This document shows, piece by piece, positions 29,451 to 60,914 of a stretch of 64,000 nucleotides of DNA. The position numbers and the translations under genes were made by a program. Below the pieces are notes generated by a model that searched no databases, had not been told where the DNA came from, and saw only the letters and a list, made by a program, of their open reading frames with translations. Location: assembly GCA_035079385.1 (NCBI GenBank), contig JAVHKY010000046.1, positions 1,302,001 to 1,366,000 on the forward strand, given 5' to 3'. Each line of letters opens with the position of its first letter. The stretch's first letter is position 1. The stretch is from Aspidiotus rigidus. Taxonomy: Eukaryota; Arthropoda; Insecta; Hemiptera; Diaspididae.

Positions 29451-29563
29451 AGAGAGGCGCGCCATAGGCGCGCCGACGTGGCTAGTATATATGTAAGAAT
29501 AATTATGCTGCTGCATATTCTTGCACGCTGGCACTCGCAGACAAAATAGGTAGTCGTAGTTGT

Positions 29564-29603
29564 TATAAGAGATTGGAATAGAGATAGCGAGTGTCAGTTA
29601 ATT
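29564..29603 (+). promoter_or_regulatory. TRIM1 LTR core promoter and putative self-primer donor
   Basis: TATAAGAG starts at 29564. The arthropod-type initiator TCAGT has its A at 29596, 32 bp downstream, which is textbook spacing. A transcript starting there begins AGTTAATTCAC, and GTCAGTTAATT (29593-29603) is the exact complement of the 11 bases that follow the LTR (29720-29730). Confidence 0.6.
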
Positions 29604-29719
29604 CACATTTTGTACGTGTAGTTGAGATATCGTTCAATAGAGACTCGGTAGAAGGAAAGATGAAGGTCTTCGGATCAATAGAGACCTGTTGCCGAGAAAG
29701 ACGAAGTTCGATTCTTACA

Positions 29720-29730
29720 AATTAACTGAC
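29720..29730 (+). other. TRIM1 primer-binding site complementary to its own LTR
   Basis: AATTAACTGAC occupies the PBS position directly after LTR1. It pairs over 11 nt with the LTR stretch at 29593-29603. I did not recognise a tRNA 3' end (which would give TGG...) here. Confidence 0.65.
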
Positions 29731-30091
29731 CAACACGCCGATTCAGAGTTGGGTGTTCGAGTAAAACGGAATGCCGGAAAGAAAGATAATCCAGAAAACC
29801 GGTAAACGATCACCCAGGTAAACGATCACCTCGACATTCTTCTCTGGTGGTGGACCCTCCTAAGAGGGGGAGATGTAAGAATATGCTGCTGCATATTCTT
29901 GCACGCTGGCACTCGCAGACAAAATAGGTAGTTGTAGTTGTTATAAGAGATTGGAATAGAGATAGCGAGTGTCAGTTAATTCACGTTTTGTACGTGTAGT
30001 TGAGATATCGTTCAATAGAGACTCGGTAGCAGGAAAGACGAAGGTCTTAGGATCAATAGAGACCTGTTGCCGAGAAAGACGAAGTTCGATT

Positions 30092-30095
<4 letters not shown>

Positions 30096-30133
<38 letters not shown>
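30096..30133. repeat. (TA)n microsatellite between two TRIMs
   Basis: An uninterrupted AT/TA run bounded by TRIM1 and TRIM2. The same tract continues after TRIM2 (30780-30785) and after the Helitron (31718-31733), so it was one target hit at least three times. Confidence 0.85.
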
Positions 30134-30137
<4 letters not shown>

Positions 30138-30779
30138 AGATGTAAAATCTTGACAAATCTGGCGATGCTGTGTTTCCACAGAATCGTATCAAAAAGTCGA
30201 GTTCCCGAAGGAAAAGCAGGTCAGCTGACTGCACTCGGAAGGATAAACAGAAGGAGAGAGGAATAGCATTATATAGTCGGAGCTCCGAACTTTGTCCGTG
30301 AGTAGGAGAGTGACGCGACTGACGGTGAAGAACGTTCACGTTCTTACATCTCCACCGCTAAGAGGAAAAGGATAAGGAGTAGACTTTTTTGATACGGCTT
30401 ACTGCATGGTGTAGGCTTACTGCGCACGCAGGAGTGGACTTGGTCCGTGTACCTACGGGGAGTGGAGTGTATCCGTGTACCCAGCTAATGCGGCTTACTG
30501 CATGATGTAGTCTTACAGCGTTCATCTACAGGAGACCGGGAGACTCAGTTATTTTGATACGATTTGTAAGATGTAAAATCTTGACAAATCTGGCGATGCT
30601 GTGTTTCCACAGAATCGTATCAAAAAGTCGAGTTCCCGAAGGAAAAGCAGGTCAGCTGACTGCACTCGGAAGGATAAACAGAAGGAGAGAGGAATAGCAT
30701 TATATAGTCGGAGCTCCGAACTTTGTCCGTGAGTAGGAGAGTGACGCGACTGACGGTGAAGAACGTTCTCGTTCTTACA
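30134..30779 (-). mobile_element. TRIM2: miniature LTR retrotransposon, minus orientation
   Basis: LTRs 30134-30348 and 30565-30779, both 215 bp, almost identical (a visible difference is TTCACG/TTCTCG near the end), with TGTAAG...CTTACA ends. The 216-bp interior is non-coding and has an internal partial repeat (CGGCTTACTGCATG twice). Read on the minus strand, GCGGTGGAGA precedes the 3' LTR as polypurine tract. The PBS position starts AATCGTATCAAAA, complementary over 13 nt to the LTR. Confidence 0.85.
30552..30564 (-). other. TRIM2 primer-binding site complementary to its own LTR
   Basis: On the minus strand the first 13 bases after the 5' LTR are AATCGTATCAAAA. The LTR carries the exact complement in sense orientation (plus-strand AATCGTATCAAAA at 30613-30625 and 30182-30194). 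Confidence 0.65.
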
Positions 30780-30785
30780 TATATA

Positions 30786-31717
30786 TCTAATATATAAAGC
30801 AGAAAGTTTGTCCGTCCTCCTGTCCGTTTATAACTCGAGAACTACTGGGCCGATCGCTTTCAAACTTTCAGGATATATTGTCCTCATCCCAGAGCAGCAC
30901 ATAGACTCATAAAAATAAAAATTTGACGGGGAGGTGCTGAGTAATTTCAAAAAAGGGCGAAAACAATGACTTTTTTCAATATAAAAAAACGTGGTGGTGT
31001 AGCTTGCCATTGAACGCGTTGTTCCAACGTTACCGTTCAAACGCGTTGAGCCGCGCAGTTATAAAAATTAAGTTATGATGATAACTCGAGTTTTACTCAT
31101 TTTTATGAAAAATTGAAGAGAACAAAAATTGTTGCCCCTTTAATTTCCTTTCGAATGAGCCCAATTCCAGATTTTTAGGAGGAAATTTTGGAACTATTGG
31201 TATTTTGACTGATGCGTATTTAAGATCATTGTGTTTACAGAGAGAGAGCATTTAAACCGGTTGCTCTGGATGAATCTACAGAGACTATTCGAGTTTTACG
31301 TATCCAATTTTCGATTTTGAAAGGAGACGTTTATGTAAAATAATTTCTTGAAAATTTGCTCTTCTTTTGTGACGAGTAACTATACATTAGGTAAATATCG
31401 TCGTCAGAGTTTGAAACTACCTAAGAAAAGGTACTGGGTTCGAGAAAGAATTAAGAAAATTACATCCGGTTTCTCATATAGGAAACGACTGAGTTCGTCT
31501 CGTGCCTCTACACAGACTGATGTAATGCTTCGGGGAAATGGCAGGCTCTTTACCTACTGTCCATCTATTTCCTTAATCATTGCGACGGTTCATGAATTAG
31601 TCCGTTTTTTGCTGCAATACAGCCCTTACCTGTCAACTCAGCTCTTACCGTTAAAATCGAAATAATTACAAAACACTGATATCTACTCAACACACAGCTG
31701 GCGCTCCCAACCGCTAG
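30786..31717 (+). mobile_element. Non-autonomous Helitron in (TA)n
   Basis: It starts TCTAATATATAAAGCAG and ends CTCCCAACCGCTAG, flanked by A on the left and T on the right with no target duplication: the TC...CTRR, A^T pattern of Helitrons. Just inside the 5' end is the sequence TCCGTTTATAACTCGAG, common in insect Helitron-like repeats. A 105-codon ORF (31348-31665) shows no recognisable domain. Confidence 0.75.
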
Positions 31718-31733
31718 TATATATATATATATA

Positions 31734-32930
31734 TTTTTTTAACTCCTCCGAAACTACCCGATGGATTTTTTTATAACTTGGCCATAGTATTATATCTGAA
31801 GATGTGCACCTGCAATTTTTTTGAGAATCGGATGAGTAGTTCTCGAGAAATTTTCACTTTTTTGAAAAATTTCTCACTATTACGAGTGCTTACAAATAGC
31901 TGCGAGTAGCTGTTCACGTTATACAAGAAGCGGATTTTCCTATCCTTTTACCACTTTTGTTATCAGTACGTGTATTGTGATGAAGAACCTTTTATCATTC
32001 AACAGGTTCATTCTTGGTTCATTCTTCACCAAGGGTTCATTGAGTTTTATTTTCGATGATATTTCATTCGAATTTAGTACACTTGTATCTCGCTTCCCAC
32101 AGCCCCTAGAGCCTTGAATTTTGTTTCATTGTTAAATTTGTTTTTGAACGGATAGTGGCAATGGAGGGTTTTTCATTTTTATTTTATTTCATTATTATTA
32201 TTAGTCATACTCGATAGTGAAAACCTCGAGTTTGAATGATTGAGTACAGTTTTTTAGTCTTCATCAAGTATGCTGCTGGACTATCTTGGTGATTTCACTC
32301 TTAATTAATTATTGATTTATATACGTCATTTTTATTTCATGTATACGTAATTGATAGTGGTTTATAGTTGATTCAAAATATGTCAGGGCGTGGAATTTTA
32401 GGTTAGACTAACGAGTAAACCAGGTTCGGGTACGATATATTTTTTTATTTTCACCGACTTTTCTAGCTAGGGAAGTGATGTACTAAACCCCTAGCAAGGT
32501 GGATAAAGGGAGGGGGCATTGAACTTTCTCGAAGTTTCACTACACCAATACTAGGCTAAGAATCAATTTTGTAGGTTACGGTCAATCACATTAAATTATG
32601 AATATTCAGAAGAGTAGTAGAAATATAAATTTTTATAGACCGCAGAAACAACTGTTATAGCCCCATAGCAAGGTGGACAGGGTTAGATCAGTTCTAGCCT
32701 AAAATTAAATAAAATAAAGGTTTCCCTGTTGGATTATGAATACCTCTAGAAGACCTTTAGGTACTCCGTTATCAGTTGATGTGACGTCACGGTGATAGAC
32801 TTTATGAACTTGAGTTTTGTGGTTAATTCAACAAATAACTGGCTTGATTGGCGATTGATTTTTATTTTAACGGAAAACTTGTTCTATGGGAGGTTTTTTG
32901 AAAATTTTGCCGTGTGCCGATCAACAAAAG
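31734..32930. repeat. Penelope-like tail repeat, second copy
   Basis: AACTCCTCCGAAACTACCCGATGG, GATGTGCACCTGC and GAATCGGATGAGTAGTTCTC recur at 54005-54300. 32060-32460 matches 55690-56150, and 32640-32880 matches 56520-56720 and 35510-35890. It has no Helentron at 32055, so it is the empty site for the element at 54526. Confidence 0.65.
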
Positions 32931-33137
32931 ACTTGGAAAAATTTCGACTTTCGAGCCATATATGATAGGAGGGGGACTAAGAAAAATCTTGACTCTCAAG
33001 CTATATATGATAGGAGGGGGACTTGAGAAATTTCGACCATTACGCTATATATGAGAGAAGGGGGATTTGGAAAAATTTCGACTCTTGAGCCATATATGAT
33101 AGAAGGGGGACTTGGAAAAATTTCGACCATCAAGCTA
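32931..33137. repeat. Minisatellite, about 60-65-bp unit, left block
   Basis: About three and a half copies of a unit containing GGAAAAATTTCGACTCT, GAGCCATATATGATAG and GAGGGGGACTT. The array resumes at 34378 after a Helitron insertion. Confidence 0.8.
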
Positions 33138-34377
33138 TCTATTATATAAAGAGAAGTTGCAAAATCGCAAATCCATTTAACTTTATTCCTATTTCACCTA
33201 TGAACTTGGAATTTGTTTCCATTGCTTTAGCTTGCCTAGGAGAAGGTTTATGCGTAATAAATTTGAAGTTACGAAATCAGGCGAATGGCGTGTAGTATAT
33301 ATCTTTGTGCTTGGCGGAGGGGGGGGGGGGGGGTTGTCATGAATGATCCAAGAGATGAAAAATCTGTCATTCATTAATTTATTGATTAAAGATGCTAAGC
33401 AATCATTTTTGTTGACGTTCATCGAAAATTAATATGTGCTAGGCAATCATTTTTGGAAAGTGGTTCTTTTTAACCCGAGAAGTTTTGAATACCCATGCTA
33501 TGAGTAATCGAATAGTGTAGGGTTACGATAAAGATTTTGCTTAGCAATTATCTGAAGAAGTGGTGGTTATCTTTCATTATTTCAAATTTAACGTGAGGAC
33601 AGAGAAAGAAAAACAATTCACGTCAATTTCGAAAATTCAATATCGAAGTCACGGATGTCTCACTTTATTGCAATCTAATTGGAATGCCGAAACGTAAGAA
33701 AGCAAATCTAGGGCGGTTGACGAACAAAGGGAAGAGGGCTCGGGTCAATTCCGAAATTTTGACATCGGAAAATAATGTGGAAAATGATTGTCAGAACGAT
33801 AATAGTCCATTCATTAGGTACATTATTGAGAAAGAATATACTGGTATAAGTTCAATTGGGAATCTGGCAATTAGGCCTACGTGCACATTTTGCGATGGAA
33901 AATTATTTGAAACTGAAGATCGAAATTTCTGTTGCGGGGGTGGTAAGATTAAGTTACCTGATTTACCCTCAATGCCGGATCTTCTTCAAAAATTATTAGA
34001 CGGAAGAGATAATAGATCTTCTCATTTTCTTAATAGCTAATTTGCGTAAATACAACAATGCGCTTTCAATGATTTCTTTAGGGTGTAATGAAGTTCCAAA
34101 CATATTTAAGTTACAACTTTCAAAATTTTCGAACAATTAGAAAGAAGAATGCGCAAAGGATCTTCTAAAAAGATGGCATCCAACTATCAGAGAAGATATT
34201 ATGAGCGAGATTGAAAGTGTAAAACAAAATACCAACGATAAAAAAAACCAAATTAAAAAATTGGAAATTAAAAGAATTAGATTAGAAATTGAACTAAAAG
34301 AATACTAATGATAAATAAATATCAAGGATTTTGAAAATAATTTGAAATTTTATAATATTTAGCGGGCTTACGGCTTG
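33138..34377 (+). mobile_element. Helitron inserted in the minisatellite
   Basis: 5' end TCTATTATATAAAGAG, 3' end AGCGGGCTTACGGCTTG. Joining the flanks (AAGCTA + TATATGATAG) restores the array unit exactly, showing A^T insertion without duplication. The 5' end resembles the Helitron at 30786. It carries the start of a Helitron ORF and a poly-G run (about 33318-33334). Confidence 0.75.
33684..34040 (+). pseudogene. Helitron protein N-terminal fragment
   Basis: ATG at 33684 opens 118 codons starting MPKRKKANLGRLTNKGK. It contains CTFCDGKLFETEDRNFCC, GGGKIKLPDLPSMP and LLQKLLDGRDNRSSHFL. The 'C..C.AK.F..E...FCC..GK..LP.LP..P..L..LL' block is characteristic of Helitron proteins upstream of the Rep domain. 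A stop follows; further residues (RKYNNALSMISLG) are readable out of frame. The Rep and helicase domains are gone. Confidence 0.75.
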
Positions 34378-34565
34378 TATATGATAGAAGGGGGATTTGG
34401 AAAAATTTCGACTCTTGAGCCACATATGATAGGAGTTGGAAAAATTTCGACTCTCGAGCTATATACGATAGGAGATTGACTTAGAAAAATTTCCACTCTC
34501 GAGCCATATAATTATGATGGGAGGGGGACTTGAAAAAATTTCGACTATCGAGCTATCTTACATAG
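34378..34565. repeat. Minisatellite, right block
   Basis: Continuation of the 60-65-bp array (ATGATAGAAGGGGGATTTGG, AAAAATTTCGACTCTC), about three units. Confidence 0.8.
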
Positions 34566-34579
34566 CTCGAGATTCGAGA

Positions 34580-35945
34580 AAAATTTATACTTTCGAACTA
34601 TATTATACTAGGCTTATAGTAAGTCTACGCCTTCTTTATACTAACTTTATCTAGGTGTAGGCTTCCTTGAATTTTCAATACCAAATCCCATTTGACTCAT
34701 AAAACAGGTTCCCTGCGTTCCTCGTTTAACTTCGTTAAGGATACCGTCGTTTTTAGGCTAGTCATTTTAGGCCTAGTATAGTATTTGTCGATACGTTTGG
34801 AAATGTTGAAGCGTGAGGGAAGGAATGAGGGGTTGACTGGTGGGTGATTGGTTGCTTCTTTGGCCTCGACATCGATTTTTTTATAGTTTTTCGGGATCTT
34901 CTTGTAGCTGGATTCCCAGATGAAGAATCAAGAGATGGAGTTTGCATAGAAAAAGGTGATATGATAGCGTGAATACAATTTATGAGTGCACGAGAGGAAT
35001 AGCAGCTGAAGGTAGCTTTAAGAGATGCCAGGAATCGGAAGTGATAAAGAACTGAACCACTCAGCCTAGTATACAGTATACTAGACTAATACTAGGCTAG
35101 GAATAATGTATAGGAAAAAATGATTGTGGAGCACTTTTTTTTACGTACGTACTTTTCTAGCTCGAAAAGTGCGGTATTACATCTGTAGCAAGATTGACAG
35201 GAGGAAGAAGCAGTCAATTTTCTCGATGCTTTGGAGGTCCTATATTACTTTCAGCATGAAAAAAATCAGTTTTTTTTGTATAGTCCTATATTTACGCTGA
35301 CAGAAATTTTTTTCCCGCGGATCTCCTCCAAAACTACTGGGTGGGTTTTTTCGAGACTTAGATATGTTATAGTCTCAATCTGAAGATGGTACGAACATTT
35401 TTTTCGACGAATAATTGATAGTAATTCCTCGGCGCACTTCCAATTGAGTTGATACGATTCTGTAGGTTACGGTTAATGATATTGGGAGTAATCGAAATAT
35501 CAATTTGCAATGATAGCAGAAACAACTGTTGTTGTCTCGTAGCAGTTTGGGCAGGGGGAGGGGGAGTGGTTTTTCTGGAGACGTTTCGTAGGTTTTAGAT
35601 GACTCCTAGTTTAAATTAAAACAAAATTCAGGTTTCCTTATTGCAGTGGGTGGCCCCAGGAATTTTGCCCGAGGTAGGCCAGCCGGAGGCCTGTGAATTG
35701 CCAGGTAGGCCGACGATTCAAAAGGGGTGAGAGAAATAAATTTTATTTCTGTTATTTGTTGCTACAGAGTTTTTACAAAAAACTTTTGGGCAGGCCAAAG
35801 GGTAGGCCGAGAAACTTTTGGTTAGACCTGGCCTACCAGGCCTGATGTGACGTCATATTGATGGAATTTATAAACTGAGTTTTATTGTTCATTCTACAAA
35901 TATTTGGCATGATTGACAGGTCATTAGTATTTAATTTAAAGAGAG
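34580..35945. repeat. Penelope-like element 3' region
   Basis: 34760-35100 matches 56165-56460 (GAAGCGTGAGGGAAGGAATG); 35150-35260 matches 53839-53970; 35510-35945 matches 56520-56820. A patch at 35636-35850 rich in TAGGCC/GGCCTA replaces the sequence seen in the other copies and looks like a separate insertion. Confidence 0.6.
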
Positions 35946-35957
35946 GAAGTGACTCAC

Positions 35958-37479
35958 TCAATGATTTTTGCATTGTAGTTGAAAAGTCGTGTACAACTCA
36001 CGCGACTGCATGAGTGTTTTTTTGTTGTTGCATTCGTTGGCCAAAATGTTTACGTTCTTAAAATTAAAGCTGTGACCCATTTCTCTAAAGTGACCAGCGA
36101 GAGCAGAGTGACCATTCTGTATTCTTTCATCATATTTATGTTGGGAGATTCTGACAGATAAAAATTGTTTGGTCTCTCCAACATAAACTTGGGAACAATC
36201 AGAACAAGGAATCGAATAAACAACACCAACTCTTTTATTGAGGGGGGTAGGATCTTTAGTTCGAGAGAGAATTTTTTGGTCGTGGAGGGTGTTGTGGTTA
36301 GCGAAAGCGATGCAAATTTTTGGATCTAAAGAACGTAAGAATTTTTGAATGATCATACTGCTCTGGCCTACATAAGGTATAGAGAAAAATTTGTGGTTTT
36401 TATGGTAGTATTATCTTTAGGTTTATAGCTAAGCACGCGCTTAATAAAATTATCAGGATAGCCATTATTGGTCAAAAGGATGCGGAAATCGGAGATAAGT
36501 TGGTTGTGGAATTCAGGATCAGAAACTTTCAACCATTTTTCTATGAGAATGAAAGCAGTATTAAATTTATAATGGAAAGGTTGATTCGACCGGAAATGTA
36601 TTATACGACTAGTATAATAGGCTTTTTGTAGTGACAAAATTTCAAATTATTACTGTTAGTACGTACCTAAAATAGGTATGTAAAGAAAATTAATAGCGTT
36701 ATAACTTTTTTCGTAGGTAAAACGTATACGGTTATGGAAATTATTCATAAAATTAAAAAGATCGTCAAAATATAGTCAAGAATCACAAACAAATAGTCAT
36801 CTACATACTTAGTCATAAATTTAATGTTATCGCCAAAATTTACAGTTATCTCTTTGAAAAAGTCATCGAGTATGAATTCGGAAACTATAGACGACAGAGG
36901 GCACCGTGTAGCTGAGAATAAAATTTCCCTTGAAACTGAAAATAACTATTTTCTAGGCCGAAGGAAAGGATGGACAAAAAAAGTTTTTTGTCGAGTGAGG
37001 TATGAGGTTGTATATCATTCCAACGTGTTGACACTGAGGCTAAGATGAGGTCTACCGGAACATTAGTGAACAAGGCAACGACGTCAAAGGATACGAGGAT
37101 GTCCGCTGAGTCCAAATGGATGGTCGATAAAATGAGAGGGAGAGACTCGGAAGAACGGGTATTTATGTCATCATCTCGGATACAATTCAGAATACTGACT
37201 ACAAACTGCGAGAGACGGTACGTAGCGTAGGTGCCCTCACAAAGGAAACAACTGGTCTCAAAGGAGAGTTTTCCTTATGAATTTTTGGTAAACCATAGAT
37301 TCTAGGTGGAAAGGTAGCACTTTAGATTGTAGTGAATAAGGTTTTTTTCGAACATAGTTTTTGTTCGGGAAAAGCCTTCGTTTTTTCTTCGTTTGTATAG
37401 AAATATTCTGAATGATCTTCAGGAAACGTTTGAACTTTTGTACGTCTGTAGGGGCCATCTTTGAATCGTTGAATTCCAA
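35958..37479 (-). pseudogene. Penelope-like element: reverse transcriptase plus GIY-YIG endonuclease
   Basis: Read on the minus strand in broken frames: FNDSKMAPTDVQKFKRFL, then ILVSFDVVALFTNVPVDL (RT motif with catalytic D), FILDDFFKEI, and YVDD at 36796-36807. GYPDNFIKRVLSYKPK follows, and the C-terminal GIY-YIG nuclease: VVYSIPCSDCSQVYVGETK, LSVRISQHKYD and HSALAGHFREMGHSF. This domain order is that of Penelope-like elements. Several stops and frameshifts (near 36366, 36650, 36880, 37250) inactivate it. The longest open piece is the 132-codon nuclease (35958-36356). Confidence 0.85.
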
Positions 37480-37919
37480 TTAATGAACAGAATTAGTTCT
37501 CGTGAACCAATTAGCCGTATTTTCCTAAATTTTGTCTACATAAATAAAAAGTTTTAAGAATTATTCATGCTTTATTTAATCAGTTATTTCGAGGAAAAAA
37601 TTGCAACATATGATACATATTTTGTGTGTATCTACGTGTGATACAGCATACCCTCAAGTTTTATTCAAGTTTTAGGCTGTAAATAAGCTAAAGCAAAACA
37701 ATTTTCCATTCGCTTGATGAAGCAACTTATTAGAAGCAAAATAACTTAGCAATCGCTTAATTACGCGACGTAATGAACGAAACAAAAGCTTAAGACTTGA
37801 AAAAAGCGAAAACATGTTTTTTCTACCAAAGGCATTTTTTTTTTTTAACAAAAACATGTTTTGTACTTTCAGCTTCAAGCTTTAAGCTCAAGTTTCAAGT
37901 TAAAACTCATAAGTCTTGA

Positions 37920-38125
37920 ACAGGGATGGTTAGGTTCACAAACATGAACTAAAGTTCACATTCACGTTCATTGTGTTTTTTTTTTTCTTTTTTTGTGAAC
38001 GTGAACGTCCAAAAAATGCACGTTTATTTTCAAATTTCAATTTTTTTCAATAATGTACGTATATAATGCAATGTGAGGAAGCAATTTTGGATAACAAGAC
38101 CATAAAAGCCATCCTGCCTTTTCTG
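37920..38125. repeat. Possible hAT-like fragment with reiterated GTTCAC motif
   Basis: It begins CAGGGATGGTTAGG and repeats GTTCAC, TTCACGTTCA and the inverse GTGAACGTGAACG. The right end is uncertain (CATCCTG at about 38112). It resembles the other motif-built MITEs, but no TSD was found. Confidence 0.4.
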
Positions 38126-38882
38126 CTTTCTCAAATCTCAACCAAACTGAAATGACACTGGGTATCAAAAAGTGATTGGGGGATTATTTATTAATGTCTC
38201 GTGGTGGTTGGTGGATTGTGAATCGTGTGAGAGTTCTGCCGTACAAAGTTGAATTGACGTATATGCAAAGACAACGATCATGGAAAAATGTTAAAAAGAG
38301 TTAAAAAATGTGTTTGGAAAAAAATTAGATAACTATAGTTGTTCTCTAACATTAGTTTTCAATTTAGAATTCAATAGTAATAATAATGACGTCCTTCTAC
38401 AAGTTCTCGATCATGGTGTTCTCGATTCTCAGCTACAGCACATCACGATGCATATACGTCAAAAAAATTGACGTACATGCATTCGATTGTAATTGGGATT
38501 CAAACTTTGAGTTGGGGAGTTGGTAGCCTTGACGATATTCACCCTTTCGCTCAATGCTTTTTAAATGTAGAAATTTTACGCACCATAATTAATAGGATAT
38601 CGTTTTTTAAAGCAAATACCAACATAAATTTTGTAGTCTGTATCATCAACATTAAATACAAAAAAAATTGTAGCAATGAATGATATATTGAAAAAATAAC
38701 ATTTGATTGAAAATCAATGTACAAACGTACATAAATTCTCTGATTCACCCTTTCAGTAGCGCTCTCTAGTGTAGGTTTAAACCCCAATAGTAAGAGAGCA
38801 TTGGGATTTAAACTTGGAGTTTCATAAGTTTGTAGCCCTGTGAAAAATTTGAGTGATCGCGTAGCGTCAACCATAATGAGAC

Positions 38883-39367
38883 TGGTGATGGGCGGTTATC
38901 GGTTATTAACCGATTAATCGGTTTATTCTTGTGTAAAATTAATCGAAAAACCAGTTTATTTGTGAATAATGATTAACCTGAAAAACCGGTTAATAAGAGC
39001 ACATAGACCGATTAACCGCTAAAATTAAAAATTTTTATAACAATTCCAAATTCCGATTGATAATTTGACAAATTTGAAGCACCAGGGCTGAAGTTATTAG
39101 AATTACTGAGTTATACATGTAAAGGATTTGGAATTATCAGTCAAGATATTTCTCACTCATTAACTCATAAAAGATCTTCCTCCTCTTTTTTTTTTTCAAT
39201 TTTCGCGATTTTAAGAGCAGAAAAGTGGAAGACCTCGGTGCTAGCGGATTTTTTTGAGAACTAAAGGCGACCCGAATAGTTGCCAGTTGACCGATTAACC
39301 GGTTACAATGATCTCTAATAAACCGTTTAACCGATGTATTGAAATAACCGATAACCACCCATCACTA
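38883..39367. repeat. hAT-like MITE built of CGGTTAATCGGTT motifs
   Basis: Ends TGGTGATGGGCGGTTATCGG and, reversed, TAGTGATGGGTGGTTATCGG; flanks AATGAGAC and AAAGAGAC (7 of 8 identical). Dense CGGTTA/TAACCG words at both ends. A related copy starts at about 63686 and runs off the window. Confidence 0.8.
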
Positions 39368-39434
39368 AAAGAGACAGCAAAATGTAAACGATTTTTACAA
39401 GGTTTTTCCCTAGTATAAAAACGTACGTGATCAC

Positions 39435-39808: not shown

Positions 39809-39845
39809 GTGATCACTTGAATCAGCTATTTTCAAAAACCTTGTA

Positions 39846-48895: not shown

Positions 48896-48897
48896 TA

Positions 48898-49450: not shown

Positions 49451-51693
49451 ATGTGGGAGGACACAGAGATCAAATTTGACCTCTCTTTCAGGTAATCATC
49501 TTCTCTTTGGTATCTCCTCAATAATTAGATACACGAAATTTCATTGTACTTCTCAAACGTGACTATTTCAGTCAAATGGAAATGCACAAAGGTGAACGAA
49601 TCGTAGATAAATTGGACTTCGTCGAAGACACGAAAGGTAATAACGGTGATAGAGGAAGGTTACTGGTAACCAGTCTGAGATTGATATGGCATTCGTTGAC
49701 GACGACTCGTATAAGTTTATGTGAGTCATTTTACGTGATAATCGAGATTTGATATATATAAACTAAGTACTTACTGCGACCGTTCACTCAAAATTTCCGA
49801 ATCCACGAAATTTGAATTATCCTAGTATTGTCGTACAACCCTAGAGAACCTAAGAGCAACGCCAGAGTTCAATAAAGAGCCAACGATCGTTGAAGTTCAA
49901 GTTTGAACTCATTTTTTAGTGGCCTTTCGTTGTCTCCACCAAGCGTGTGAAGCTAGTCGTGAAGAAAAAGTTGAATTGTTTTCTATCTTCTTTTCATCAG
50001 TGACTTTGTAATATAATATTTTCCCACTCAAGATTTCAAGTTTTCAATTTTGACACAATTGTATTCTGTTGTGTGTCTCATTTGCATTCTTTTTCTTCAA
50101 AATAATAAAATGATGAATGAAATGATCACTGTCGTTGAAAAATGAACTGGTGTATTAGCTGAAGTTTCAATCGAAAATATTGCAGAATTCTATGGATGAG
50201 AGGATAATATGATTTTCTAATCCTTCTGATGACGTTGATATCAATTTATCAAGAAGAAAAACTCATGAACTATCCCGAAAAATTGTTCAGTAGACCCTTG
50301 CGGTTTTCTCTCCATCTCGCGTTCCGTATCTGGCGAATCTGTCGTCAAATAAGAATGTCACGCTGTTGCACGTATGCTCTAGGGTTCATTTTTCACGTGA
50401 TATTGTTGGTCCACACTTCGCAGTGTAGTCTTATGGTCGCAGTTGTTGAAGAACTTGTAAATCTTCGAGTACAATATCTTCGTGTAAAACTTTTAAATTT
50501 CAACAGCTATTGGGTACAGTTCTATCCAGGATATTTCAACAAAAGTTGTCAATTCCGTGAGTAACATTCTGAATTGTTGGTTCATGAAAAGAAAAGTATT
50601 TTTTATGTAAATTTTATGCACTCATCACACCGCAGAGGTTGAATTTTTACTCACTCTTTTAGTCAGAATTGAATGTCTCCGTTTTTTACAATAGAGATTG
50701 AAAGGTTTGACCGAAGCTCTCCATGTCATTACAAGGTTCAACGGTTGCCGTTACGAATTTATTTTCACAAACCTGCTTCCAGGAGACTCGCGACACTTCA
50801 CATCAGTTATGGGAGTTTACAAGTAATGATCTTCAAAATTTCCGTCCCTGAATAATTTTTTATCTTCAGAGGATCCCATTTTATAGAGCATATCAGTCCT
50901 CCCGAATCTACCGTGAACTCAAACTCAGGGGAGCGATTGTGAATAACAAACAATTGAACATTCTTGAAAAAGAAACTATATATTTCACCGTGAATGGAGT
51001 ATGGAATTTATCGAGCGATCAAGGTAATCTAGGCACATTCATAGCAACTAGTGTACGAATGGTATGGTTCGCCGACATGAATGAAACTTTCAATGTTTCT
51101 CTACCTTATATTCAAATAGGATCGGTTAGCGCTTCTCATCATTCTCAAAATTTTTTGCAATAAATCATACGATATTAATAACAACTATTATAGATCAAAG
51201 TTCGCGAATCAAGATTTGGGTTGGCATTGGTCGTTGAAAGTTCACTTGGCAGCGGTGGATATGTACTTGGTTTTCGAATTGATCCCGTCGAACACCTTCA
51301 TAAGATAGCAAGTGATTTACAGAAATTGTGTCTTACTCATTGCGAGCATCCAGAATTTGGCGTCTATTATACCTTAACGACTACGGTATTTATTTGAATA
51401 ATGAATTTTCATTTTTGTAATAAGCTAACTATTTTTCAATGTGAACGATCTCTTTGCAGCCTCTTTTTTCCAAACGACCACCTATTATACCGAACGATAC
51501 AATAGAATTTGACGAAATTGTTAATGATATGTCAAATACGCTGGTCACGTACAGCTTAGATCTAATGGAAGAAAATACTAAAAGACCTGTACATTGTCCA
51601 GAATTGGGCCTCGCTGTCGAAAAACTGAAGGATGGATACTCCATACAAAATTTATGGGAAGTTTTACCTTCACAAATAAAATCCATAAATTAA
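49451..51693 (+). CDS. BBS5: BBS5, Bardet-Biedl syndrome 5 protein (BBSome subunit), complete
   Basis: Seven coding exons with GT/AG borders: 49451-49491, 49572-49720, 50507-50556, 50695-50822, 50887-51124, 51194-51385, 51460-51693; 1032 nt, 343 residues (human about 341). Markers along it: [114 protein letters not shown] and [20 protein letters not shown]. It has the two PH-like domains of the BBS5 family (about 20-140 and 150-270), which bind phosphoinositides; the BBSome moves membrane proteins into and out of cilia. Phases close at every junction with no stop. The start is the ATG in the exon aligning with the family's LWED block; an upstream non-coding exon is possible. Largest intron 786 bp. 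Confidence 0.95.
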
Positions 51694-53054
51694 TATTATT
51701 CCGTCACCAACAAGATGATTCGATATTTCTAAAATATTTTTAACTCGCTGAAATCTTCAAGAAATTTGGAACCCTCTCAATGATTACGTCGCGTTCAAAA
51801 TGAGCAGGAATTCACGGGTTTGTCGTTTTCGTATTTCCTATTTGTCAATGTGTGAATACGTTTCAACTTTTTCAGGCTGTAAGATTTAATTTTCCTTCAG
51901 AAATCAGAATGCTTATTCGTTCATCAATGTAGAAAACTTTGTACTCCTGAGATAATAAACAGAATTTGGCTCATTCATCTTTTCGATTACTAAAAAACTG
52001 ACGAGATGACGTTCAGATACATCGTCGGTATCATCTTCACAAGTAACTGAAATTAAAAGTACAGCACTTTTCCAAATATAAGCCACACTTCTTTTTCAGA
52101 TTCTTGAACCGTGAAAAATGAGATCCGGCCTGTATGCTAGTCGGATTTACGTATCAGAGATTACAGTCCGACAACCACTTATATGATAAAAAAGTTCTTC
52201 GATGGATTCAACTACAAGAGTGCGCTGCGTGTTGAGATGTGGGTGTAAACGAGAATACTAAAGATTGAGCGACGAAGCAATTTACCTTAATCACGTCATA
52301 ATTAATCAAGTTTAGAACAACAGAGTAACTCTGAAGATTAATAACTTTGAAAAATATGAAGATTGAAGGTTTCTTTCGTACAAATGAAGAGTTAGGGAGG
52401 GGGAGCATTTGGCCATCAGAGTTACTAAAGCTATTCGATGAATCAGCAGTTACGAGTGAGAGAAGAAATCCTCATTGTATACAATTTCTATAATAATTTA
52501 GAAGCAGAATTTTACCTCCATCCCTATCAAGCCCGCAGGCTAAATCCATTCATAGAGAAAATTTTATATCTTTTGGAGAGATCAAGCTTTTCTGCTAAAT
52601 AAACCGGCAGTTTTTTCTTTTAGCGTAATCATGAGCGACTCGTGAAGTACACTTACTGCCCAGATTTTCACGATGGAAACAGTAAATGAATTTTACGTGT
52701 GGTTACTGCACACTTTTGCGAACCATTTCTGTAGAACTTGTAAAAATACAAACCTGTGCAAGTGGACTTGACGAGTGTAACGAAATAGGATTATTTACTT
52801 TTGTGCCGCAATCGAATATTACCAATATTTTTTTTAATTAAATTGTGTTTTTGACTAGAGGAGCTTAGTCCCTCTCCCTTGGCAGTAGGTCCGAGACGTT
52901 GATACGTGCGCAATAAGTATGAAATACTTTGACATATAAAATAAAACTAATATCTTTCTTTGAACAGCACGAGAGCTGATCAAATGTTACGGATCTGATT
53001 ATCTCCAAAACTTCCTCCAAATAGTGGAAGACCTATCTAAGACTTCAATGCGTA
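51694..53054. other. 3' flank of BBS5, no gene seen
   Basis: AT-rich DNA containing the probable BBS5 3' UTR (AATAAT- and ATAAA-like words near 51890-51960). A short patch GAGTGCGCTGCGTGTTGAG near 52220 resembles the interior of the CATTGACTATA MITEs. It ends at the gypsy target site TACA (53055-53058). Confidence 0.4.
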
Positions 53055-53058
53055 TACA

Positions 53059-53325
53059 TATAAGTTCGTAATGAACAAAAATGAAAACTTCGATGATGCA
53101 CGTAAATTTTATTTCAATAATTAGCGAATCGATACGAAGCTTTCGACGACGCGACAAGAACTGGACATAATTATTAGGAAGTACCTAAGAGTGATACAAC
53201 CACGTACACGTTTATACGTGCATCAATGAACAATATGCAATTTTAATTAAAAAACTAGATAAGCGATAACGGTATGGTATGGCCTGAAATACGGTCGCAG
53301 TGGCGAGCGGAACTTCAATCTTACA
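53059..53325 (-). repeat. Gypsy 3' LTR
   Basis: Same length as the 5' LTR and colinear with it; followed inward by the polypurine tract (53326-53335 on the plus strand, TCCCCTCACC). Confidence 0.9.
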
Positions 53326-53339
53326 TCCCCTCACCGAGA

Positions 53340-53838
53340 GAGCAACAAAGACCCAAATTTCAGAGATACCTTTATCCTAAGGAAATATCCTAATAAGAGG
53401 TCAAGGAAGTAAATGGAAATAGTTTATTTACTAATATGATAAAGACGCTGTTTTTTTTGTTTATTGCCCACGTCAATAAAGAAGAGATTATTTGATACTT
53501 TTTTTGAGATTGGATAGGGACCAATTCTTACCTCATCTAACTTTGCGCGATTTAGCTTATTTCCATTTTCTATGAATACGAGGTCCCCTTCGGAGAAATT
53601 ATATTTGGTAGACGACTTGTCTAGATAATTTTTATTTCTATTATGATCAATTATAGAGAATTTTGGAAAGCTATTTTTCTATCCCGAATATGATTGCTTG
53701 GTTTTTGCAATTCATGCGGTAGTATTGAATTCATTTTACCATACATGAGGTAGCTTGGTGCGAATTTTGTTACACTGTGAGGCGTGTCATTATATTCTTT
53801 TATACATTGGTGAGCAATATTTACCCAACTCTTTTTTT
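53340..53838 (-). pseudogene. Gypsy integrase C-terminal part
   Basis: Minus strand reads KKSWVNIAHQCIKEYNDTPH and FAPSYLMYGKMNSILP, then GPYPISKKVSNNLFFIDVG, the GPY/F module of gypsy integrases. It continues the frame broken at about 56850 by the Penelope-like insertion. One stop lies within the linker. Confidence 0.8.
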
Positions 53839-54525
53839 ACCGACTTTTCTAACTAGAAAAGTGAGGTATTACACCCGTAGCAAGGTCAACAGGGGGAGTG
53901 GGCAATGAACTTTCTCGACGTTTTAGGGGTCCTAGATCACAACTAGCATAAAAAAAATTTCAGGTTTCCTTATATATATTTATATTTATATATAAGATTT
54001 TTTTGTCCGCGGAACTCCTCCGAAACTACCCGATGGATTTCTTTGTAACTTAGCCATATTGTAGTATTATATCTGAAGATGTGCACCTGCAATTTTTTTG
54101 AGAATCGGATGAATAGTTCTCGAGAAATTTTCAATTTGTTGAGAAATTTTGCAGTATTTCGAGTGCCTTTTTGTCCGCGTAACTCCTCCGAAACTACCCG
54201 ATGGATTTTTTTGTAACTCGGCCATATTATAGTATTATATTTGAAGAGGTGCACCTGCATTTTTTTTGAGGATCGGATGAGTAGTTCTCGAGAAATTTTC
54301 ACTTTTTTTGAAAAATTTTTCACTATTACAAGTAGCTTCTTACAAATAGCTGCGAGTAGCTGCTTAGTGCTTACGTTAGGAGAAGCGGATTTTCCTATAC
54401 GTTTACCACTTTCCTTATCGTTTACCACTTTCGTTATCAGTACGTGTATTGTGATGAAGAACCTTTCATCATTCGACAGGTTCATTCTTTGTTCATTCTT
54501 TACCAAGGGTTCATTGGATTTTATT

Positions 54526-55683
54526 AGGTTCGTGCTCTTCGAGCAAAGAACCTATTGCAATCGCTTTTTTTCAAGATCAGCCTCATCAGAACCAGATGAC
54601 GGCGTGAGTTGATGATGAGGTGAGCAGGCTAGATTTGGTCCAACTGTGTGCCACAGATGTTGGTACAGTGATACCAAATATTTTCAACAGATTTATCAAA
54701 AGTGAGAGGTGTGGCGAAAATATGATTCAGATGATAACGAATAAATTTTTATTTTGTGAACTGTATAGCCCGTTCCTATAGTAATATTTGTTTTCTTCTT
54801 TGATTGAAGATGAAACGGCCGATCGAGAAGACGAGAAAGGAGTGTACAGAAACACTTATTATTCGTAAATCGGCGAATTCTACATTTGTTCATTGTGTGC
54901 AGTTATAGTAAAGCTGATAGAATTTAAGAACGAAACTATGGAACTGTGTTTGAAACGAAAACATACTTTATGAGAGAAACTGTGGAATCATTTATCGAAT
55001 GGCTGGTAGTTTGAGAACGCATTATTATATTGTTTTTGGTCAGTACATAAGCAATGAGAAGCTATTGAAATTGATTTTGATCAGACAAATATGAGTGATA
55101 GTAGATGACGATTTCGAAACTTATTGGTTCGTGTATCGGTAGCTAGTGTGTATTGTGTTTCGAGTCATCCAAGTTTCAAATTAGGCCTACATCATGATAA
55201 AATGAATTCTCGAAAGATATTAGTATTATTAGAAAAAAAAAATTTTTTTAATAATATAGATTCTGCCATAGGAGTAAGTACCTATAAAAAGTGACGGATT
55301 GCTTTTCTTCAGCCTTCCAATCATCGTTCACAGATATTGTTTACGCATCTTTCGATTTGCGATGCAATATATCGATTCATAAGTGGATTGTTTTACGAAG
55401 TTTTACAATAATATTCCCTATTCATTCTAGAGAAAAGTAGTTTTTGCGTGAGGAAGTAGAGGAGTGTTTTCGTATTGCGTTTTATTCACAATATTAATGT
55501 CTAGTTACTACAGTCTGTTCCACGAGAGTTTGGTATTATAAACGATAGGCAACCCACGTCACTCACGCTTATTTTACGTTACGGAATGCGAATGGAATGC
55601 GGGTTCCCCGTGATTTATAATACCAAACTCTCGTGGAACAGACTGTAGGCACGAACCTCTTCCAGCCTGGTACAGGGTGCTTG
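54526..55683. mobile_element. Helentron-like element, copy 2, with empty-site proof
   Basis: It starts AGGTTCGTGCTCTTCGAGC and ends GCACGAACCTCTTCCAGCC, a hairpin and GTGCTTG. The paralogue at 32041-32070 reads TTTTATT directly into TTCGATG with no insert, so insertion was between T and T. Shares both termini with 20184-22775. No ORF. Confidence 0.75.
55511..55645. repeat. MITE inside the Helentron, TA target
   Basis: Arms CAGTCTGTTCCACGAGAG and TTTGGTATTATAAA are exactly mirrored at the right; TA on both sides (55509-55510, 55646-55647). Confidence 0.8.
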
Positions 55684-56849
55684 TTTCCGATGAAACCTTT
55701 TCATTCAAATTTGGTACACTTGTATCTCGCTTCCCACAGCCCCTAGAGCATTGAATTTTGTTTTGTCAAATTTTATTTGTTTTGTTAAATTTATTTTTGA
55801 ACCGGTAGTGGCAATGGCGGGTTGTTCATTTTTCTAGCTATTTTTCATTATTATTAGTCATACTCGATAGTGAAAACCTTGAGTTTGAATGATTAAGTAC
55901 ACTTTTTTAATCTTCAAGTGTGCTGATGCGAGACTACCTGAGTGATTTCACTCTTAATTAATAATTGATTTATTTGTCATTTTTTCATGTATGAGTACAT
56001 AATTAATAGTGGTTCATAGTTGATTTGAGGTGTCTCAAGAGATGGAAAGATTGTTTTCAATTTGGACTGGCTTTTTTGAGTGAGATTTGAGATTAGACTA
56101 ACGAGTAAACCAGGCTTGGGTGCTATATATTTTTACTGAATTTTCTAGTTAGAAAAGTGAGGTATTTTGTTAATACGTTTGGAATGGTTGAAGCGTGAGG
56201 GAAGGAATGAGGGGTTGACTATTGGGTGATTGGTTGCTTCTTTCGTTTCGACATCGATTTTCTTAGTTTTTCTGGATCTCGTGGTAGCTGGATTCCCAGA
56301 TGAAGAATTTTGGGGTGGAGTGTGCATAGAAAATGGTGATATGATAGCGTGAATGCAATTTATGAGTGCACGAGAGGAATAGCAGCTGGAGATAGCTTTA
56401 AGAGATGCCAGGAATTGGAAGCGATAAAGAATTGAACCACTCATCCTAATATACAGTATACTAGACTAATAATATGCTAAGAATAACGTATGGGAAAAAA
56501 TGATTGTAGAGCTCTTTTTTATTAGAAACAACTGTTATAGCCTCGTAGCAGTTTGGACAGGGGGAGTGGTTTTTCTGGAGACGTGTTGTAGGTTTCAGAT
56601 GACTCTTAGCCTAAATTATAACAAAATTCAGGTTTCCTTATTGGATTATAGGTATTTTTACTCTGTTATCTGTTGATGTGACATCGTAGTGATAGAATTT
56701 ATAAACTGAGTTTTATTGTTTATTCTACAAATGTTTGACAGGTCATTGGTATTTAATTTAAAGAGAGGGAGTGACTCTATCAATGTTTTTTGCATTGTGG
56801 GAAGAAAAGTTGTGTACTACTCACGCGACTGCGTGAGTGTTTTTTTATT

Positions 56850-59410
56850 ATTTTTTTCATTTATTCGACAACGTATCCTATTGGTTAGTGTCTGGTTTAA
56901 CCTTTTGTTAAGACCATTTGAAGAGGCGTTGTCGACTGCTGTTACTACATGTTTAATTTTTTTTGAATCTAGGAAGTTATTGAATTCTTCTGAAGTTAGA
57001 CTCCCATATTGATCTGTTAATGACAAACCTATTGGGTGTTCACCACAAACATTATTAATTAATTTGACAAACTCTGAGGTTGTTTGATAAGTAGATGCCA
57101 AAGTATAGGCGTACCTTGTAAAGTGGTCAACCAGGAGGAACAAGTAGCGTTTTGTTGACCGTCTGCCCCCAAAAACACCAATGGTATCAAGGGACATGAT
57201 GTCAAAAGGTTGTTTAGCTGGCCCAAGATACCCTAAACAGCCTTTATCTTTTTTTATTCTCGTTTTATTTTTTATGCAGACTTCACAAGTACTGCAAGTA
57301 TTCTCTATTAACTTGTACATATTTTTAAAATAATAGTTAAGTCTTATTATATTTATTAAATGCTTCATTCCAATATGACCATAGTGTAGATGGGTGTTTT
57401 TTATCAATCTACCTCCAAGAGCCGAGGACAAGTGTATCCGGGACTTATTTCCCACGTTTCTATACTGGATATTGTTCCTATCTATAGTATCCCTTTTAAA
57501 TAATTTCCTTTGATCATCAATTATATCATCGATGGTCAAGAGTTTGATAGTACAAAGGCAATCTTTTAGGACACATTCGTTGGGGTTTAAAACTGGATTG
57601 CGTGAAAGACAGTCTGCCTCAACATTCATAACTCCAGGTTTATACTGAATATGAAAGTTGAACTGGAGTAAGTAATTCAACAAATCCCCCAACTCTTCAT
57701 CCGTTCTTGAGGTAACTTTTAGGTTTTCAAGGGGCTTATGATCGAAAAACACTGTGAACCTCCGCCCCAATAACCAATATTGCCAGTATTTCACTGCCTC
57801 ACGAATCGCGATGTATTCAATATAAATTGCCTTTTTCTTTTTTTGGCATTCATAGAGCTTTCTTGAAAAATAAGCAATCGGTTTTCCGCAGCTATCCCTT
57901 TGAGGCTGCTTTAAAACGGCACCTACTCCTTCTAGACTGGCGTCGGTATAAATGTATATAGGGAGGTTTTCATTGAAGACTGCTAAAATGGGTGAAGACA
58001 TCAAGTAAGATTTTATATTATCAAATGCTTGCTGGCACTCCTTGGTCCAATTAAATTGAACATTTTTCCTAAGAAGATGATGAAATGGTTCGAGCACTTT
58101 TGCAGTGTTGGGAATGTATTTATGGTAAAAATTTACCTTTCCCAGGAACTGTCTTACATTTTTTGTTGTTGTGGGGTTCGGGAAATCACGTATCGCTTTT
58201 AAATCATCTGTTAGTGGTCGTACAGTATCTCTACCGATCACATGACCAAGGTACTTTACCTCCTCCATTGCAAATTCACATTTAGAAAATTTTAAACGGA
58301 ATCCCTCCTCCTGAATTGCTACTAAAAGAGTTTCAATGTGTTTTAAGTGTTCTTCAAAAGTGTCTGAAAAAACAAGGATATCGTCGATGTAATTTACACA
58401 AAAATTTTGAAGATTTCGTTTTCTGATTATCCCTGCTAAAATCCTTTGAAAAATAGCGGAAGCGTTCTTGAGACCAAATGGCATACTTAACCACTGAAAA
58501 TGGCCACTTTGTGTAGGTAATGAAAGCGGTTTTTTGACGATCTTTGATCCTCAGGGGAATTGTCCAAAAAGCTGAATTTATATATCCAGTGACGAGAACC
58601 ATTTCTTTCTCTGTGTTTGAATAATTAAATCATCAATCAATGGGTACGGGTAGACCTCGGGAACTAACAATTTGTTGAGCTCCCTGAAGTCCACGTACAT
58701 CCTGTTTTTTATTTTTTTGTCTCCATCCTTCTTATATGCCAGGGTAACTGGAGAAGCAAACAGGGAGGTGGATTCCTCAATGATTCCATGTTTTAACAAT
58801 TCGGAAATCTGTGCTTCGATTTCTTTTCTATCCTCATTAGAACAACGGTACGGTTTTTTTGTTATGTATTTATTTTCAATTAATTTAATATTTGCTTCAT
58901 AGTCTTTAACATAACCTATGTCAAATTTATTTTTTGCAAAAGAGGAACCATGTTTATCTACAAGCTTAAAAATTTTTTTCTCTTTTCGGCATCAAGATGC
59001 CCTGTTTTAATTTTGAATTCCTCAACGGAGATAAACTCATTCCAATTCACTAACATAGGTGAATTTGTGTAATTGTGATGAATGGGTGGGTTTAGATCAT
59101 GGTTTAGGCAGTTTAAGGGTTTTTGGGATATTTGACCATTTTCATCTTGGCAAAGCCTGAATTTTAAGATATTGTCTAAACCTAATAAGATGTCATATTC
59201 AAAGTCTTCCCTATCAACCACAAAAAATCGAGTTTCTTGTTCAATGTCGAACACTTTCATTTTTAAGAATACTATTCCTAGCAACTCGTCCGCTCCACTC
59301 ATCGTTTTGTACGAAAATCTTCTTTTGTAAGCATTATATTCATTTTTTATTTTTTTGAAGAATTTTAAATTTATTAATGTTATGTTTGCGCCCCCATCAT
59401 AGAGGGCCAC
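56850..59410 (-). pseudogene. Gypsy pol: protease, reverse transcriptase, RNase H, integrase core
   Basis: Protease: ALYDGGANITLI (family D-S/T-G; here DGG) and ILLGLDN. RT: ESTSLFASPVTLAYKKDG, MYVDFRELNKLLV, MPFGLKNASAIFQRIL and catalytic YIDDILVFS. RNase H: TDASLEGVGAVLKQ and FFDHKPLENL. Integrase: HYGHIGMKHL, CSTCEVC zinc module, MSLDTIGVF and LTDQYGSLTS. The third catalytic position reads NGLNKRLNQ, Lys where Glu is normal. Frameshifts occur at an A-run near 58970, near 58580 and near 58500. It is not translatable as one protein. Confidence 0.9.
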
Positions 59411-59436
59411 TGCTTCAAGATCTTCGATGATAGTGT

Positions 59437-60360
59437 TTAATTTGATGAGCGGAGGAATTTCAAGTTTTTTTGATCAGCAACTTCTTGATTAAAAAAATCT
59501 TCCATTTCAGTATTATTGGCAAGACGTATGTTTTTTTCTTTATCCTTTTCAGATTTTTGTAATTTCCATTTATTCTTGCATTCACTTTCAGTGTGTAACC
59601 TTTGATATCCTAACTTCTCACACACGGGACAGAATTTACTATCCTTATTATTTTTATCATAATTTTGAGAGAAAGATTTTCCCTTAAATTCATTTTGTCT
59701 GTTTTTCATGTCTTTGTTAACATTGCTACTATACTTAGGAGAGGAAGTGTTTTCACCTAGCCGGTTAAGTTCGGCGAGAAGTTTTCCAAATGTATCAACA
59801 GTTTTCTTGTTAATTTTTTGTTGGATGGACATGGGTAGCCCTATCACTGTCAATCCTACCCGTGATTTTTCTGTGAATTCCGAGTCAGCATCAATTAACA
59901 AATTCATTTTTTTAATAGCGTATTGTGAAAAAGAAGTCCCACTTCGCCACTTATAATTAATAGCAAACCATACTTCAGACCAACCTTTTTCGCTGAAAGA
60001 TTCCAGAAATTTTGAACTCCATTCCTCCCATGAGTCCTCTCCGACGAGCTTCCAATTGGCCTGGAACCATTCCAATGGTGAGCCTTCAAGGAAAAGGCGA
60101 AGAGCCTCCACACGTTGGTTAATGCTGATTTTGAGTCGATCACATTCGGTGACAAACGTACGCTACCAAACCCTAGCGTTCTGGTTCACCCCAGTGAATT
60201 TTTCTATCACCATGTCTTTTGTGATGCTTTGGAGGGAACGTTTTTTTTCCGATGTATCGATCTGGTCTGAAGTGGGAACGGCATCCTGTGGCGTTGATTC
60301 CTCCAGAAACCATTCATCATAAATTGGATTATCATTGTCATCAAAATAAATTTTTCTCAT
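59437..60360 (-). pseudogene. Gypsy gag with one premature stop
   Basis: ATG at 60360 opens MRKIYFDDNDNPIYDEWF. One in-frame TAG (60163-60165) follows NARVW; the frame then runs on through RVEALRLFLEGSPLEWFQ, SYSQYA-like SFSQYAIKKMNLLID and a Cys-His knuckle CPVCEKLGYQRLHTESEC to a stop at 59437. Gag forms the particle that packages the RNA. A single substitution separates it from an open frame. Confidence 0.8.
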
Positions 60361-60638
60361 TTCTTCCGAAAGTGTGACTTGGACTCGACGAAACTGACTT
60401 CTTGATTGCTGTTAATTTCATTAGTTCCACGTGTGACGACAAAAGATATTTTTCTTTAGGGAAAAGATATACTTTACCTTCCCCATCTATTTGCAATGAC
60501 CGAACAGCAAGCACAGAACTCTTATTGTCGGCTGTTGTTTCAGCAGATAACAAAAAACGAACTTTCATTTTAAATTAGTTGAAAGAGATTTTATGTGAGT
60601 TACTCAGCCGCGAGAGAATAAGTACGTTACGAATTTAA

Positions 60639-60647
60639 GTATCGATT
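60639..60647 (-). other. Gypsy primer-binding site complementary to its own LTR
   Basis: Minus-strand bases directly after the 5' LTR are AATCGATAC. The sense LTR contains GTATCGATT (plus-strand AATCGATAC at 60716-60724), an exact 9-nt complement. No tRNA-type TGG start is seen. Confidence 0.55.
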
Positions 60648-60914
60648 TATAAGTTCGCAATGAACAAAAATGAAAACTTCGATGATGCACGTAAATTTTA
60701 TTTCAATAATTAGCGAATCGATACGAAGCTTTCGACGACGCGACAAGAACTGGACATAATTATTAGGAAGTACCTAAGAGTGATACAACCACGTACACGT
60801 TTATACGTGCATCAATGAACAATATACAATTTTAATTAAAAAACTAGATAAGCGATAACGGTATGGTATGGCCTGAAATACGGTCGCAGTGGCGAGCGGA
60901 ACTTCAATCTTACA
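60648..60914 (-). repeat. Gypsy 5' LTR
   Basis: 267 bp, paired with 53059-53325. A weak TATA-like TAATTAT lies about 38 bp upstream of the self-complementary GTATCGATT in sense orientation. Confidence 0.9.

Follow-up and report, generated by a model that had tools for sequence, protein, structure and literature searches.

What primes reverse transcription of three long terminal repeat (LTR) retrotransposons whose primer-binding site (PBS) is complementary to their own LTR? The elements lie in a 64,000-nucleotide stretch of the genome of the diaspidid Aspidiotus rigidus (GenBank assembly GCA_035079385.1, contig JAVHKY010000046.1, positions 1,302,001 to 1,366,000 of the forward strand), hereafter the window, with position 1 as its first letter. 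They comprise two terminal-repeat retrotransposons in miniature (TRIMs), T1 and T2, and a much longer Ty3/gypsy element, hereafter the gypsy; in each, the PBS starts flush with the end of the 5' LTR and has an exact complement within that LTR, of 11 nt in T1, 13 nt in T2 and 9 nt in the gypsy. Having followed this arrangement through the genome, we consider it highly probable that the members of a Ty3/gypsy lineage, TRIMs included, use the first 9-12 nt of their own transcript to prime the minus DNA strand, as in Tf1. The lineage as a whole, together with its TRIMs, is very likely self-primed as a rule, which is wider than what a sequence-only reading of the window had stated. Self-priming itself is already known; the literature accessible to us had neither this host group nor the probable lineage, so many families or the use by TRIMs.

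Own-LTR complementarity across 24 LTR families

A search of the 441-Mb genome with the reverse transcriptase/RNase H/integrase piece of the gypsy gave 1805 candidates, at least 78 of them scored, the piece itself counted; from the 78, 37 were hand-picked, about one to two per score group and excluding the window's own copy. For each relative we read 2.2 kb where the 5' LTR was expected and 1.5 kb at the 3' LTR, and dropped four (C21, C3:19059250, C2:1363995, and C16) with no LTR pair in these stretches. An own-LTR complement of 9-12 nt beginning at the first base past the LTR is present in 32 of the 33 remaining relatives. Together with the three window elements, these make up 36 elements, which fall into 24 LTR families when grouped by shared 12-mers; the match is found in all 24 family representatives and in 35 of the 36 elements (for the family of C71, C52:10227956, and C25:12163863, the representative is the best-matching of the three members). 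Over the families the match measures 9 nt in three cases, 10 nt in four, 11 nt in 11, 12 nt in five and 13 nt in one, with a mean of 10.9 nt, and the primer site, viz., the stretch of the LTR complementary to the PBS, occurs once per LTR in 24 of 24.

The same PBSs set against the LTRs of other families match over a mean of only 5.1 nt and reach 9 nt or more in 19 of 552 comparisons; no permutation out of 20000 attained the observed sum of matches, shuffled LTRs equalled the own match length in 40 of 24000 trials, and matches of the PBSs in direct orientation extend over 3-9 nt. At PBS positions 4-12 two to four types of base pair are seen across families, with the pairing kept throughout. The enrichment of LTR complementarity among family members, by which the sequence-only reading had proposed that its idea be judged, is thus borne out. 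Two families that were grouped apart, C27:2712578 and C13:9524468 / C48:221370, have an identical PBS, AATCAAAAACA, which in either family matches the LTR of that family; they may have converged, be distantly related or have exchanged a primer. Searches of viral-contig and genome-contig collections with Pol and with the LTR letters returned nothing useful.

The LTR ends on which these matches are anchored can be checked independently of the PBS: a perfect 4-bp target-site duplication (TSD) lies directly at the ends used in 30 of 33 elements. Those without one are C41 (three of four bases alike), C71, and C52:6129648, the LTR starts of the latter two being guessed; the ends were set by hand in four elements (C41, C25:2597211, C25:12163863, and C46:1703168). 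The LTRs start with TGTAA (TGAAA in one case) and end with TTACA, TTATA or TTAAA, and the polypurine tract, where the 3' stretch shows it, is a run of G followed by A immediately before TGTAA. The start TGTAAGA that had been proposed as the mark of the lineage is therefore too narrow: its first five bases are shared, and the 36 elements continue from TGTAA with A, C, G or T, apart from one with TGAAAG. An unprocessed AA at the 3' LTR ends, suggested by where alignments end, was considered and rejected as an alignment effect in light of the perfect TSDs.

The three elements of the window

T1 spans 29492-30097 (+), T2 30134-30779 (-) and the gypsy 53059-60914 (-), with the following parts:

29492..29719 (+): T1, 5' LTR, 228 bp, TGTAAGA...TCTTACA
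29593..29603 (+): T1, primer site in the 5' LTR, GTCAGTTAATT, complementary to the PBS and containing TCAGTT
29720..29730 (+): T1, PBS, AATTAACTGAC, from the first base of the internal part onward
29731..29861 (+): T1, internal part, without an open reading frame (ORF) of at least 150 aa
29862..29873 (+): T1, polypurine tract, AAGAGGGGGAGA
29874..30097 (+): T1, 3' LTR, 224 bp
29971..29981 (+): T1, second copy of the primer site, in the 3' LTR
30565..30779 (-): T2, 5' LTR, 215 bp
30613..30625 (-): T2, primer site, TTTTGATACGATT
30552..30564 (-): T2, PBS, AATCGTATCAAAA, from the first base past the 5' LTR
30349..30358 (-): T2, polypurine tract, GCGGTGGAGA
30134..30348 (-): T2, 3' LTR
60648..60914 (-): gypsy, 5' LTR, 267 bp
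60716..60724 (-): gypsy, primer site, GTATCGATT
60639..60647 (-): gypsy, PBS, AATCGATAC, from the first base past the 5' LTR
59437..60111 (-): gypsy, ORF that is Gag-like by position only, without a Pfam match
58958..59410 (-): gypsy, protease region (PF13975, with a score under its cut-off)
56817..58484 (-): gypsy, reverse transcriptase (beginning inside the domain), then RNase H and the start of integrase
53326..53335 (-): gypsy, polypurine tract, GGTGAGGGGA
53059..53325 (-): gypsy, 3' LTR

The primer site is present in both LTR copies of all three elements. The three complements and their positions, as first reported from the sequence alone, were re-derived and are all correct. Their chance level was assessed against 20000 dinucleotide shuffles of the LTR, with the matching prefix anchored at the LTR end, which reached the observed match never in T1, once in T2 and 113 times in the gypsy. 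A null made of real sequence, with pseudo-elements placed at every window position and inverted repeats included, reached it in 484 of 127484 cases for T1 (0.38%), 297 of 127510 for T2 (0.23%) and 1239 of 127406 for the gypsy (0.97%). The estimate of roughly 1 in 1000 that had been offered for the 9-mer of the gypsy consequently has to be revised, as by both nulls such a match is about 5 to 10 times likelier; this match being unconvincing alone, the case rests on the family-wide test. Strong inverted repeats at 17300-17500 of the window, perhaps a foldback element, raise the real-sequence nulls.

The gypsy copy is not intact: the integrase frame ends at 56817, an interruption of about 3 kb with 151-bp repeats occupies 53840-56817, and by eye integrase-like sequence appears again near 53800. 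Elsewhere in the window, an 827-aa ORF at 5027-7510 resembles, by eye, a non-LTR reverse transcriptase. In the wider assembly, C70, C87, C89, and C97 each carry a pair of COX1 matches separated by about 13.4 kb, a spacing that would fit mitochondrial genomes assembled as tandem dimers, and pieces of COX1 are numerous in other contigs too.

The primer-site edge, the putative RNA start and the predicted leader

The primer sites of the 24 families are alike in their boundaries. Their 3' end is ATT in all 24, with C as the next base in 17, and they begin with a purine in 17 families and with T in seven. Directly before the site stands a pyrimidine in 23 of 24 families (P 3e-5, with 58% pyrimidine as the background), and bases -12 to -1 carry 3.17 bits of information, as against 1.15 +/- 0.28 (maximum 2.24) at 500 random anchors, with preferences for A at -9 and -8 (14 of 24 families each), C at -4 (12), and T at -1 (18); by eye, the upstream edge resembles AACGACTT in many families. 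A poly(A) signal (AATAAA or ATTAAA) lies no more than 45 nt downstream of the site in 20 of 24 families, for which random placement gives a mean of 4.5 and a maximum of 11, and a signal so soon after the site suits a short R region that begins at the primer. In C28 and C29, which belong to one family, the LTR edge reads TTTTATTTCACG, whereas the two differ at position 12 of the PBS (A or T), which suggests an 11-nt primer starting at the A. T1 has TATAAG 29 nt upstream of its primer site, and the TCAGTT of that site resembles the arthropod initiator. From these boundaries we infer that the transcript would start at the first base of the primer. TATA-like motifs were also considered as what fixes the RNA start, and were rejected because their distance to the site varies across families.

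Folding predictions point to pairing of the two sites in many leaders. With an RNA starting at the primer, the mean probability of primer:PBS pairing is at least 0.5 in 16 of the 24 leaders, and in the minimum-energy folds of the window leaders the primer is predicted to pair with the PBS in T1, T2 and the gypsy alike. The z-scores of these three leaders are -1.4, -3.6 and -1.2, respectively, only that of T2 being clearly stabler than shuffles. For the gypsy, when 60 internal bases are included, the predicted pairing probability is 0.86 from the primer start, and none of the earlier starts that were tried exceeds 0.10.

Alternatives to self-priming

Several observations weigh against self-priming from the very tip of the transcript. 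The lone exception among the relatives, C52:10227956, has the PBS of its family and one changed base at the primer end, such that its match extends over 5 nt from the first base and 10 from the second, its two sisters matching over 11. No poly(A) signal follows the site in T1 and T2, nor, over the next 45 nt, in C3:20329607 and C4. Both T2 and the gypsy have a TATA-like motif 81 nt upstream of the site, and these motifs, if used, would place the RNA start about 50 nt too early. The predicted pairing is also not particular to one start: with the RNA beginning 40 nt upstream it still reaches 0.5 in 13 of 24 leaders, and for the gypsy it lies at 0.60-0.80 from starts at 110-170 if only 25 internal bases are included. 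Further, the other-clade control comes down to one element with a partial 5' LTR, since of the two BEL elements tried the second stretch missed the LTR.

The alternative that survives best, although improbable, is that an internal piece of a tRNA, as for copia, or some other cellular RNA serves as the primer and the LTR complement merely folds the leader, in the way of the retroviral U5-inverted-repeat (U5-IR) stem. Stems between the LTR and the PBS region are described for retroviruses in PMC3601003, Tf1 likewise requires such a stem according to work cited in PMC4600332, and eight of the 24 leaders here show no predicted pairing at a probability of 0.5 or more. However, TGG is missing from the first 6 nt of all 24 families, so that, judged by this motif, a tRNA 3' end does not fit. 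In T1, T2 and the gypsy TGG is likewise absent from the first 25 internal bases, which makes the usual pairing with a CCA-ended tRNA impossible there; across the families it occurs within the first 25 nt in two, at positions 13 and 22, unlike in a normal PBS. A tRNA scan of the window found no genes. By comparison, the BEL control from the same genome has TGGCGCCCGAATAGTAGTGG, including TGGCGCCC, directly past its LTR, an ordinary tRNA-type PBS, and its own match is 5 nt both against the 186 bp of 5' LTR read, the start of which is possibly cut off, and against the 3' stretch, where the other LTR lies. Above all, the PBSs vary between families and track their own LTR, which a common cellular primer would not produce. 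This is brought out by the tapeworm elements ta-TRIM and lennie, its proposed partner, which as described in PMC4558846 have one common PBS for a single tRNA-Leu, whereas the PBSs of T1, T2 and the gypsy differ, each matching its own LTR. No other single argument, in our view, favours self-priming over a cellular primer as strongly as this pattern. The sequence-only proposal of a self-primed lineage accordingly finds support in the own-LTR match of 24 of 24 families and the lack of TGG from their first 6 nt.

A still less probable variant retains self-priming and lengthens the 5' fragment: the RNA would start at the upstream TATA-like motif, and the site would be an internal hairpin arm that is cut by RNase H. 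The motifs at 81 nt in both T2 and the gypsy and the 13 leaders that pair despite 40 nt of extra upstream sequence are what it would explain. The complementarity, however, ends at 9-13 nt, where plus-strand copying of a longer primer should lengthen it; the pyrimidine boundary and the poly(A) signal point to an RNA start at the site, and the distance from the TATA-like motif to the site is inconstant across families. Finally, chance, or an artefact of AT-rich LTRs and hand-placed LTR ends, for which the 113 of 20000 shuffles matching the gypsy 9-mer and the four hand-set ends (among them C41, with three of four TSD bases alike) might speak, has a negligible claim against matches in 24 of 24 families versus 19 of 552 cross-comparisons, 0 of 20000 permutations, 40 of 24000 shuffles and the TSDs that confirm the LTR ends of 30 out of 33 elements.

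Lineage and known self-primed systems

The elements that we consider self-primed have the features of Ty3/gypsy, with the Pfam domains in the order protease, reverse transcriptase, RNase H, and integrase and the 4-bp TSD in 30 of 33, and the best solved-structure relatives are Ty3 chains. All the organism-named Pol relatives (10 rows among the 120 listed of 2511) are insects, e.g., Papilio, Lasius, Henosepilachna, Venturia, and Trichogramma, which indirectly makes the insect lineage suggested by the sequence-only reading likely; two insect Pol relatives carry the automatic name Tf2, which has no evidential value. The chromodomain scan covered three sequences, P0001, P0040 and, from L041 (a 63% relative), a C-terminal piece; none was reported to have a chromodomain at E-values up to 0.1, and all three show a weak match to a Tf2-1-like SH3 domain (PF24626) under its cut-off. 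Descent from the chromoviral Tf1/sushi group is not supported by these scans of three Pol proteins or pieces.

According to PMC4600332, self-priming has been implicated from fungi to vertebrates, and in Tj1 the PBS complements the 5' end of the element's own mRNA, a relationship first shown for Tf1. The elements of A. rigidus are like Tf1/Tf2 and Tj1 in having a PBS flush with the LTR, a complement in their own LTR, a predicted primer of about 11 nt and no tRNA-type PBS. They are unlike these elements of fission yeasts in their insect host, in the 24 families of a single genome, almost all with private primers, in the inclusion of TRIMs and in that a scan of three Pol proteins or pieces reported no chromodomain. 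The primer of Tf1 is 11 nt long. With the sushi-type fish elements and other chromoviruses said to self-prime the mechanism would be shared, the account in PMC3601003 being concerned with chromoviruses and the elements here being without a chromodomain where scanned. Among the matches listed in the open-licence literature there was no self-primed insect LTR element, which is no proof of absence.

The TRIMs T1 and T2

With lengths of 606 and 646 bp, LTRs of 215-228 bp and no ORF of at least 150 aa, T1 and T2 fall within the definition of TRIMs (less than 1 kb, LTRs of 100-250 bp, noncoding), apart from the tRNA-type PBS that the definition includes, for neither has a TGG in its first 25 nt. T2 gave 448 candidates in the genome, and among 40 LTR copies scored (the window's two included) 39 are 100% and one is 99% identical. 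All 18 distinct T2 junctions (L009-L038, the window's own included) keep the 13-nt match, with only junctions starting with AATCGTATC having been sought. By its LTR identity T2 is a very young family, with many copies in TATA-like targets, and at C18:638656-639732 it forms a tandem array of three LTRs alternating with two internal parts. T1 gave 346 candidates, of which 40 were scored, and several of the six read resemble solo LTRs. The shared LTR ends, the PBS start AAT and the 4-bp TSDs suggest that T1 and T2 may be mobilised by this gypsy lineage.

Comparable miniature elements are known from other animals. PbTRIM of harvester ants is, like T1 and T2, a miniature insect LTR element with a 4-bp TSD, mostly ATAT, and differs in that its authors assigned it a tRNA-Leu PBS (PMC3532108), T1 and T2 being without a TGG-type PBS. 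The pairing of miniature and autonomous elements with common LTR ends, as here, is paralleled by ta-TRIM and lennie (PMC4558846), and the TRIMs of bivalves yielded no clear PBS (PMC6934838).

A proposed mechanism and its implications

We propose that transcription begins at a pyrimidine-purine step inside the LTR, giving an RNA whose short tip would end in AUU. This 5' tip is complementary to the bases past the end of U5, which start with AAT, and is predicted to pair with them exactly. By analogy with Tf1, the RNase H of the element would then cut the RNA after AUU, mostly before C, creating a primer with a free 3' end that the reverse transcriptase would extend through U5 and R. Plus-strand strong-stop DNA would in turn copy the primer, such that a new PBS is rewritten from the own LTR in each cycle; rewriting of this kind would explain why the match of each family differs and yet stays exact. 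The TRIMs would bring their own primer, with autonomous relatives probably supplying in trans the enzymes that cut and extend it.

Accounts of self-priming usually link it to elements of fungi and vertebrates. Going beyond this, we lean slightly towards the view that a whole successful insect lineage of Ty3/gypsy outside the chromoviruses has abandoned tRNA priming and become obligately self-primed, with promoter position and PBS evolving as a unit, and that the private primers of TRIMs are cut in trans by a foreign RNase H that would recognize the fold and the AUU end rather than a fixed sequence. As 24 families in one genome follow one rule with mostly different primers, the primer length, the ATT end, the edge and the leader fold can be read comparatively. 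The finding also suggests why searches for a tRNA-type PBS fail on such elements, and insect elements without a recognized PBS deserve re-reading. The RNA start of an LTR element may thereby become predictable from DNA alone, and self-primed TRIMs, if true, would show that the primer cut can act in trans.

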